Source of the DNA: Lachnospiraceae bacterium
Lineage (GTDB): Bacteria > Bacillota > Clostridia > Lachnospirales > Lachnospiraceae
DNA: 45,195 nt
NCBI GenBank assembly: GCA_024684675.1
Contig: JAIKWO010000147.1
Span: forward strand, 1-45,195
Reading direction: 5' to 3'
Below the pieces are notes generated by a model that did no database searches, had not been told where the DNA came from, and worked only from the letters and a program-made list of their open reading frames with translations. Shown here one piece after another: positions 7,865-26,741 of this stretch. A program made the translations under genes and the position numbers. Each line of letters begins with the position of its first letter. The stretch's first letter is position 1.

Positions 7865-8146
7865 TTATTTTGCTTCTGTCTCAGTAGCCTCTGTCTCAGC
7901 TGCTTCAGTCTCTGTAGCTGCTGCTTCTGTCTCTGTAGCTGCTGTCTCAGTTGCTTCAGTTTCTGTAGCTTCTGTTTCAGTTGCTTCTGTCTCTGTAGCT
8001 GCTGCTTCTGTCTCTGTTGCAACAGTCTCTTCTACAACAGTTGCCTCTGTCTCAGCTGCAGGTGCTGCTGCTGTGCTGCCGCAAGCGCAAACGAATGCGG
8101 ATGTCATAACTACTGCGAATACTACTGCTAATACGTTCTTTTTCAT
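7865..8146 (-). CDS. Small putative lipoprotein with Thr/Glu/Ala low-complexity repeats
   Basis: MKKNVLAVVFAVVMTSAFVCACGSTAAAPA signal/lipobox then tandem (A)TETEA units; RBS AGGAGGAAATTATTATG, promoter and terminator all present. Confidence 0.75.
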   Translation of the reverse strand: MKKNVLAVVFAVVMTSAFVCACGSTAAAPAAETEATVVEETVATETEAAATETEATETEATETEATETAATETEAAATETEAAETEATETEAK

Positions 8147-25313: not shown

Positions 25314-25462
25314 CCTCTCTCTTCTTCCATCCAGACTATCCCGCAGACTTATCGTCTGCTTCGTGCTATCAAGCATCTGTCGGCTCCGTAATCGCAACGG
25401 ATCATGCCTTTCGGCTCGCGGGCTGTACCGCCGGTCGGGAATTGCACCCTGCCCTGAAGATC
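25314..25462 (-). ncRNA. FMN riboswitch (RFN element)
   Basis: Minus strand ATCTTCAGGGCAGGGTGCAATTCCCGACCGGCGGTACAGCCCGCGAGCC...GATCCGTTGCGATTACGGAGCCGACAG...AGTCTGGATGGAAGAAGA matches the RFN consensus; directly upstream of ribD. Confidence 0.97.
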
Positions 25463-25573
25463 AATATGAATTTGTTACAGTATACGACAAGAAAGCGAAG
25501 AGCGCAAGTGCCAATAGGAGCATATACAATGTGTGGAAGCGGGCGCATTACCAAATTTCCTATCTCTACATCG

Positions 25574-25658
25574 TTATTCGCTTTGAGCGCGTTTAAAGCG
25601 AATAAAAAATATTTCAAAACGAATATCTATTGACAGAAGGCGAATAAAAAAATACAAT
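25574..25658 (+). promoter_or_regulatory. Promoter and repeat-array operator of the HTH-GHKL-DUF4325 gene
   Basis: TTGACA (25630-25635)-N17-TACAAT (25653-25658); perfect 11-bp inverted repeat TTATTCGCTTT/AAAGCGAATAA (25574-25584/25595-25605); CGAATA at 25599, 25620, 25641. Confidence 0.8.
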
Positions 25659-25680
25659 AAAACCACCAAGGAGAACAGCC

Positions 25681-26691
25681 ATGAAATTTAACACAGAAAT
25701 GAAGCGCAACATCATACTCTATCTGCTGGAGAAGATCGACCAGAAAGACCCGGCCGTTTCCAAAGCGGTGGCGGAGTGTTTTTCCGTTAATCAGAACACG
25801 ATCCACACATACATTAATGAGTTGGTATCGGATCAGGTGATCAGGCGTGTTAAGCGCGGACAGTACGAGCTGTTTAAATCCGAATATAAGTTCCGGCTTA
25901 AACGCTCCGCCGGCGATCTTGATTCAGACATCGCCGCATACGATCATTGCTTATTGGATCATATCAAGCACTTGGGTGAAAATGTGCGATCCATTTGGGG
26001 CTATGCGTTCAGTGAGATGATCAACAATGTAATGGATCATTCTACAGCTGAGAACGTGGAAGTGATCATTGAACAGGATTATCTCAACACAACGGCCATC
26101 ATTCTTGATGACGGAATCGGAATCTTTAAAAAGATCAAGGAGCATTTTCACTTTGCAACCCTTGATGAAGCCATCAGTGAGCTTTTCAAAGGGAAGCTGA
26201 CCACCGATGCAGAGAATCATTCCGGCGAAGGGATTTTTTTCAGTTCCAAGCTGATGGACGATTTCTACATCATCTCCGACGGAAAAGTCTTTTCGAATAA
26301 TAAATTCGATAACAGCAAGATCTTGAATTACACAGAATCCGAATTCAAAGGCACCTGCGTATGGATGCGCCTGTCGAATTATACAAATAAAAAGCCGCAG
26401 GATGTGTTTGATGCGTACGCGGATACAGACGGTGGCTTTACAAAAACGAGAATCCCATTAAAAAACATATTTGACAGTTCACCCGTATCCCGCTCGCAGG
26501 CCAAGCGGATCTGCAATCGCCTCGAACAATTTGAAGAAGTCCTGCTGGATTTTGAGGGGATCGGTTGGATGGGGCAGGGTTTTGCACATCAACTGTTTGT
26601 TGTCTTTGCAAAAGGTCACCCGGACATTCGTTTGATCCCGATCAACATGAATGAGGATGTCACAAAAATGTATGTTCATGTTACTACATAA
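25681..26691 (+). CDS. Fused winged-HTH + GHKL ATPase + STAS-like DUF4325 protein
   Basis: N-term HTH-like FSVNQNTIHTYINELVSDQVIRRVKRGQY; N-box FSEMINNVMDHS, G1 LDDGIGIF, G2 GEGIFFSSK; C-term LDFEGIGWMGQGFAHQLFVVFAKGHP DUF4325 signature. RBS AAGGAGAA. Confidence 0.88.
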   Translation: MKFNTEMKRNIILYLLEKIDQKDPAVSKAVAECFSVNQNTIHTYINELVSDQVIRRVKRGQYELFKSEYKFRLKRSAGDLDSDIAAYDHCLLDHIKHLGENVRSIWGYAFSEMINNVMDHSTAENVEVIIEQDYLNTTAIILDDGIGIFKKIKEHFHFATLDEAISELFKGKLTTDAENHSGEGIFFSSKLMDDFYIISDGKVFSNNKFDNSKILNYTESEFKGTCVWMRLSNYTNKKPQDVFDAYADTDGGFTKTRIPLKNIFDSSPVSRSQAKRICNRLEQFEEVLLDFEGIGWMGQGFAHQLFVVFAKGHPDIRLIPINMNEDVTKMYVHVTT

Positions 26692-26692
26692 A

Positions 26693-26726
26693 AAGCGAGG
26701 GTCTGTTATCCGACCCTCGCCTTTTC
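26693..26726. terminator. Bidirectional intrinsic terminator between convergent genes
   Basis: AAAAAGCGAGGGTC-TGTTATCC-GACCCTCGCCTTTT. Confidence 0.88.
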
Positions 26727-26741
26727 CTTATCACTTTAGAA

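Follow-up and report, generated by a model that had tools for sequence, protein, structure and literature searches.

We examined a gene at positions 25681 to 26691 of the window, by which we mean the whole 45,195-nucleotide stretch of DNA from a Lachnospiraceae bacterium. The gene encodes a protein of 336 amino acids (aa) and is preceded by a near-consensus promoter overlapping a set of repeated boxes. The features of the locus are listed below, with the basis of each assignment in parentheses.

25492 to 26741, no strand: segment absent from the orthologous site of G004, a genome of the same genus; ends approximate (flank comparison).
25574 to 25586, minus strand: putative operator box 1, inverted, TTATTCGCTTTGA (minus strand: TCAAAGCGAATAA) (box inspection, shuffle test).
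25593 to 25605, plus strand: putative operator box 2, TTAAAGCGAATAA, starting 19 bp past the start of box 1 (box inspection, shuffle test).
25614 to 25626, plus strand: putative operator box 3, TCAAAACGAATAT, 21 bp past box 2 and just upstream of the -35 element (box inspection, shuffle test).
25635 to 25647, plus strand: putative operator box 4, AGAAGGCGAATAA, 21 bp past box 3 and between the -35 and -10 elements (box inspection, shuffle test).
25630 to 25658, plus strand: sigma-A-type promoter, TTGACA-17 bp-TACAAT (11 of 12 matches).
25668 to 25673, plus strand: ribosome-binding site, AAGGAG (sequence).
25681 to 26691, plus strand: wHTH-GHKL-STAS-like protein, 336 aa (open reading frame, Pfam, alignment, AlphaFold2).
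25693 to 25872, plus strand: predicted winged helix-turn-helix (wHTH), residues 5 to 64, recognition helix at about residues 38 to 50 (QNTIHTYINEL) (AlphaFold2, alignment).
25927 to 26385, plus strand: GHKL ATPase/kinase-like domain, residues ∼83 to 235 (Pfam, invariant residues, AlphaFold2, Foldseek).
26431 to 26688, plus strand: STAS-like DUF4325 domain, residues ∼251 to 336, in which the loop G298-Q299-G300-F301 replaces D-S-x-G (Pfam, alignment, AlphaFold2).
26695 to 26720, plus strand: intrinsic terminator with a 9-bp stem (terminator search).

The open reading frame starts with an ATG preceded by the AAGGAG motif. Its downstream neighbors lie on the other strand, the next gene being a chemotaxis receptor, and with its own promoter and terminator the gene is monocistronic, as the first-pass annotation of this DNA had read it. 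An FMN riboswitch (25315 to 25465, minus strand), ahead of riboflavin genes, is found immediately to the left of the inserted segment.

The C-terminal part of the protein (residues 273 to 327) belongs to DUF4325 (Pfam entry PF14213; 57.1 bits for a cut-off of 23), and this is the only DUF4325 domain in the window's genome, which is 83% complete. By its N, G1, and G2 boxes and its fold, the protein is a GHKL ATPase, with Pfam scores that fall slightly under the cut-offs (25.8 bits for 26.4 with HATPase_c and 25.1 bits for 27.4 with HATPase_c_2). In an alignment of 34 family sequences, almost all aligned end to end, residues E112, N115, N116, D143, G145, G147, H180, G182, E183, and G184 of these boxes are invariant. 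The AlphaFold2 model built on the family alignment (mean pLDDT of 85, pTM of 0.80) has helices at residues 5 to 20, 26 to 34, and 38 to 50 and a beta wing at residues 54 to 64, mostly with pLDDT values of 90 to 95, and this N-terminal fold is predicted to be a canonical winged HTH; no HTH family reached its Pfam cut-off. The first-pass annotation had proposed, from the letters of the sequence, that a DNA-binding N terminus, a GHKL ATPase with an intact ATP-binding signature, and a STAS-like domain are fused in one chain, and the Pfam matches, the invariant boxes, and the model bear this out, the DNA-binding fold being a prediction.

When we compared the model with solved structures using Foldseek, SpoIIAB came out on top, followed by DesK-type kinases and, lower, by RsbV/RsbW, and a sequence search of the PDB gave weak matches only, the highest being DesK-type kinases. 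Pfam detected no HisKA or HisKA_3 dimerization domain with its phosphorylatable histidine, so the protein is not a two-component histidine kinase. The structural match to SpoIIAB, together with weak matches to the RsbW and HATPase_c_2 models, would suit an anti-sigma factor, whose GHKL domain would hold a sigma factor captive, with the STAS tail as a competitor for it. We hold this to be most improbable, as the curated RsbW model gave 13.6 bits for a cut-off of 145, no sigma factor recurred as a neighbor in the loci examined, and a DNA-binding head with an array of its own is a simpler target. The protein has three domains in a single chain. We found no description of an HTH-GHKL-DUF4325 chain in the papers searched. 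Such functions had been set down in the first-pass annotation as belonging to separate known proteins and fused here; the single-chain form appears to be new, but the combination itself was preceded by the two-protein switch CapK/CapS (PMC13373217).

The absence of the DSxG serine, also pointed out from the sequence, proved to be a family trait. In the STAS-like domain the loop is W-M-G-Q-G-F; G298 and Q299 do not vary among the aligned relatives, which have G-Q-G/A-F (invariant Gln299, Gly or Ala at position 300) where SpoIIAA has its phosphoserine site (D-S-x-G). The GQ(G/A)F loop, without the canonical serine, is also present in nearly all of the distant relatives that we found on viral contigs (L191 has GPSF and L197 has RQGF). 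Since there is no serine at the canonical site, control by nucleotide state or by domain docking is more likely than phosphorylation of the SpoIIAA type.

We then looked into the DNA upstream of the gene. In the window, one inverted 13-bp box is followed by three direct boxes, with starts 19, 21, and 21 bp apart. Neither the palindrome, which has perfect 11-bp arms, nor the pair of 21-bp repeats in the window would be expected from chance alone, as in 100 shuffles neither pattern ever reached its observed number. The inverted-19-direct layout was counted by eye in ∼27 of 35 loci, in most of which the direct boxes are spaced by 21 or 22 bp. We also applied a test blind to the box word, which scores any 11-bp stretch that recurs with 10 of 11 identities at a given lag, to 34 family promoters and, as controls, to 150 other promoters of the same loci. 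A direct repeat at a lag of exactly 21 was present in 53% of the family promoters versus 1% of the controls, and one at a lag of 22 in 15% versus 1%; apart from ∼42, other direct lags were near zero in the family, and inverted lags of 38, 40, and 42 were found in 35 to 44% of family promoters versus 1% of controls. The 21-bp spacing is kept with differing words (TTGCGACTT in L031, TATTTGGAA in L070, AATAAAGGT in L069, TTTAAAGTT in L040, and GATGAATAA in L023). In L002 the array is ∼100 bp farther upstream, the tests used detected no clear array in L038, L041, and L068, and the lag-21 repeat occurs in only 3 of 17 very distant relatives. The array travels with the gene, its word varying and its spacing staying constant, which is good evidence that it serves as a target for the protein encoded beside it. 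The DNA from 25574 to 25658, which the first-pass annotation had singled out for gel-shift assays, corresponds to this operator-like array, the spacing of which is conserved among relatives.

With labels assigned by hand, residue 39 of the recognition helix pairs with one box base in 33 of 34 loci, L066 being the single exception: Asn goes with G (mostly CGA) and Ser, Thr, or Ala with A (CAA). In a phylogeny from which the HTH was left out, residue 39 changes six times and the box base five times, and the well-supported branches yield two concordant and no discordant independent pairs. This covariation is suggestive only, as its significance is lost when the relatedness of the loci is taken into account.

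To what extent the protein may act elsewhere was assessed by searching genomes for further arrays. In the 13 genomes searched, full-form paired boxes occurred nowhere but at the gene, and the same held for the full-form palindrome in 11 genomes; the window's own genome showed no other such array. An extra palindrome in G061 is the mirror array behind the gene, and other matches to box or palindrome occurred at roughly the control frequency. A regulon, for which we had looked in these 11 to 13 genomes, is thus not apparent from full-form arrays. As no other full-form array and no recurrent neighbor family turned up, the visible target of the protein is its own gene, to which single degenerate sites elsewhere may add.

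The gene has one copy per genome. Of the 61 genomes surveyed in the window's surroundings, 7 contain it, counting one weak partial match; across the class, clear full-length matches come from 7 of 388 genomes. The window's own genome is included in both counts. In G004 the flanks of the window's segment are 83% and 86% identical and lie 26 bp apart, with the gene missing, and G004 has its own copy, only 68% identical, at another site. That region is rearranged in the window's genome and so provides no second empty site for comparison. This lower identity and different location, next to flanks of 83 to 86%, argue for separate acquisition of the two copies. An ∼80-bp dispersed palindromic repeat, of which G004 contains dozens of partial or full copies, is located directly upstream of the gene copy in G004 (L155, ∼7925 to 8010). 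Elsewhere, L007, from the cultured relative Eubacterium ruminantium ATCC 17233, and L008 have in common a 1,242-bp block composed of the gene and its arrays, which ends just outside the outer boxes and is embedded in unrelated flanks. Together with neighbors that differ from locus to locus, this makes the gene a small, horizontally mobile accessory cassette, which we do not claim as a transposon.

The empty site in G004, the L007/L008 block with its unrelated flanks, and the mirror-image box array found behind the stop codon in seven relatives (L003, L005, L007, L008, L010, L019, and L020) could also be read as signs of a small mobile element, the boxes being terminal sites and the protein moving the segment alone or with a host recombinase. 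Against this, domain-model searches found no nuclease or recombinase domain in the protein, each genome has a single copy and, in those searched, no solo arrays, and no target-site duplication was seen at the G004 site or at the L007/L008 block. Most copies, the window's among them, have no right-hand array, and in L003, L005, L019, and L020 the palindrome on the right could double as a terminator. We consider this reading very unlikely; a transposable element was rejected as a candidate given the lack of a transposase, the single copy, the missing right-hand array in the window, and the absence of a visible duplication.

We also evaluated whether the gene keeps company with phage or defense genes, a check proposed in the first-pass annotation, and the answer depended on the distance of the relatives. 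The genes around close relatives are diverse, chiefly housekeeping ones, and are not conserved from locus to locus; the 95 nearest neighbors of relatives, compared with PADLOC and Pfam, contain no recurrent family, and a defense link of the close relatives was thus rejected. PADLOC matched the protein itself only through its wHTH, weakly, to AbiEi and two other models, and gave no whole-protein match to a known anti-phage system. Our scan of viral contigs retrieved 25 relatives at 32 to 47% identity, most of them full length, and those sampled lie beside phage genes: terminase and portal (L180 and L183), endolysin (L182), or integrase (L187, L197, and L200). These are usual prophage cargo positions, so the phage part of the proposed link holds for distant relatives. 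With two queries, no match was obtained in 50,697 phage records and 72,556 plasmids, and a positive control worked in the phage set.

The cargo positions of distant relatives, and the promoter and terminator that the window copy has for itself, would fit an accessory effector, for example for phage exclusion, carried by prophage or host and silenced by the array until infection. We regard such a role as possible but doubtful, since the protein has no effector domain, the close relatives are surrounded mainly by housekeeping genes, and the phage and plasmid collections gave no match.

Comparison of relatives established the domains, the array and its spacing, the mobility of the gene, and the absence of further arrays in the genomes searched; DNA binding, repression, ATP gating, and release are what we infer. 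We propose that the 336-aa protein is probably a cooperative autorepressor and, as the reading we favor with moderate confidence, that it constitutes a one-protein switch that is self-contained, moves horizontally, and regulates its own expression. Its winged HTH would bind the ∼13-bp boxes (TTAAARCGAATAA in the window), the first inverted and the following ones direct. Because the direct boxes are 21 bp, or two helical turns, apart, protomers would bind cooperatively along one side of the double helix and cover the gene's own promoter, which the assembly would block sterically, one box lying between -35 and -10. The stability of the assembly would most likely be set by the GHKL domain, through the ATP that it binds or turns over and through its contact with the STAS-like tail of the same or the next protomer; a signal would release the assembly and raise the level of the protein. 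Neighboring protomers on direct repeats, if they touch, would do so through an asymmetric contact, which docking of GHKL onto STAS between protomers would supply.

Boxes 1 to 3 could conceivably serve activation instead of repression, and it is hard to see what the cell gains from a regulator with itself as the sole visible target, which speaks against the switch. A more speculative form of the proposal, which we judge unlikely, is that partner switching within one chain has turned into polymerization: each GHKL domain would dock with the STAS-like tail of the neighboring protomer, giving an ATP-driven head-to-tail filament along the 21-bp-phased boxes, and in members with a mirror array the filament may loop the two ends of the gene together. 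Under the autorepressor model, the protein offers a compact system for how ATP state might set DNA occupancy without phosphotransfer. The operator array is a ready test substrate, and its changing words form a natural set for the recognition code of the HTH.

The closest known systems are the controllers of immune operons, CapK and CapS. CapK (HTH-STAS-GHKL) is activated by single-stranded DNA (ssDNA), which it binds in a groove formed by the STAS domain between HTH and GHKL (Trp68), and its phosphorylation target is Ser54 of CapS, a STAS-wHTH protein that represses both its own promoter and an immune operon and for which cooperative assembly along DNA was proposed (Chambers et al., EMBO J 2026, PMC13373217). 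The window protein has in common with this pair (PMC13373217) a GHKL kinase-like domain, a STAS domain, an HTH, a probably autoregulated promoter, and cooperative assembly along DNA, as proposed for CapS and here. DUF4325 resembles the STAS of CapS, to judge from L104, where a DUF4325-wHTH protein has a match to PDB entry 9z71 (E value of 9e-4). The name of that entry mentions just a winged HTH regulator; its length and the partner entries 9z72 and 9z73 lead us to identify it with CapS. In L104 (494 to 3042), this CapS-like gene adjoins a CapK-like GHKL gene with a STAS-like N terminus, and the pair stands, by eye, directly ahead of an apparent recA, a position suggestive of a link to DNA damage.

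Such likeness would be expected of a CapK-like sensor of DNA damage, with ssDNA activating the GHKL domain and stress or immune genes elsewhere being controlled. We find this distinctly unlikely for the window protein, in which the CapK-type STAS with its ssDNA groove is absent and has no room in the ∼20 residues between 64 and 83, and for its relatives, which have no further array in the genomes searched and no recurrent defense or stress gene next to them. Also unlike the two-protein system, the window gene is followed by no capS and adjoins no immune operon; its order is HTH-GHKL-STAS in one chain; its only wHTH is N-terminal and not C-terminal as in CapS, of which it also lacks the phosphoacceptor Ser; and its boxes are 21-bp tandem repeats, whereas the CapS system uses TTAA palindromes.

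Two uncharacterized STAS-GHKL-DUF4325 proteins (L100, 1414 to 2673, and L101, 481 to 1749), single chains that are apparently natural CapK+CapS-type fusions, also unite GHKL and DUF4325, but an apparent CapK-type STAS replaces the HTH and the loop serines are kept (SSSF). A frame in L098 (62 to 1423) joins a Cas12f1-like TNB stretch to GHKL near a DUF4325 match and may be an assembly or insertion artifact. VapKSC (PMC13373217) resembles the window in its GHKL kinase and STAS partner; the window has neither a toxin gene nor a separate STAS protein, and its STAS is without the conserved Ser/Thr. SpoIIAB-SpoIIAA and RsbW-RsbV have the same GHKL fold (the top Foldseek match) and a STAS-like fold, whereas the window protein fuses both to a DNA-binding head, has Gln for the phosphorylated Ser, and has no visible sigma factor partner. 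GHKL kinases and STAS proteins are usually separate partners, and the single chain keeps both without the canonical phosphoserine. The window protein brings together an ATPase of the CapK type, a STAS of the CapS type, and a predicted DNA-binding head, resembling the CapK/CapS switch in outline while being a member of neither family.
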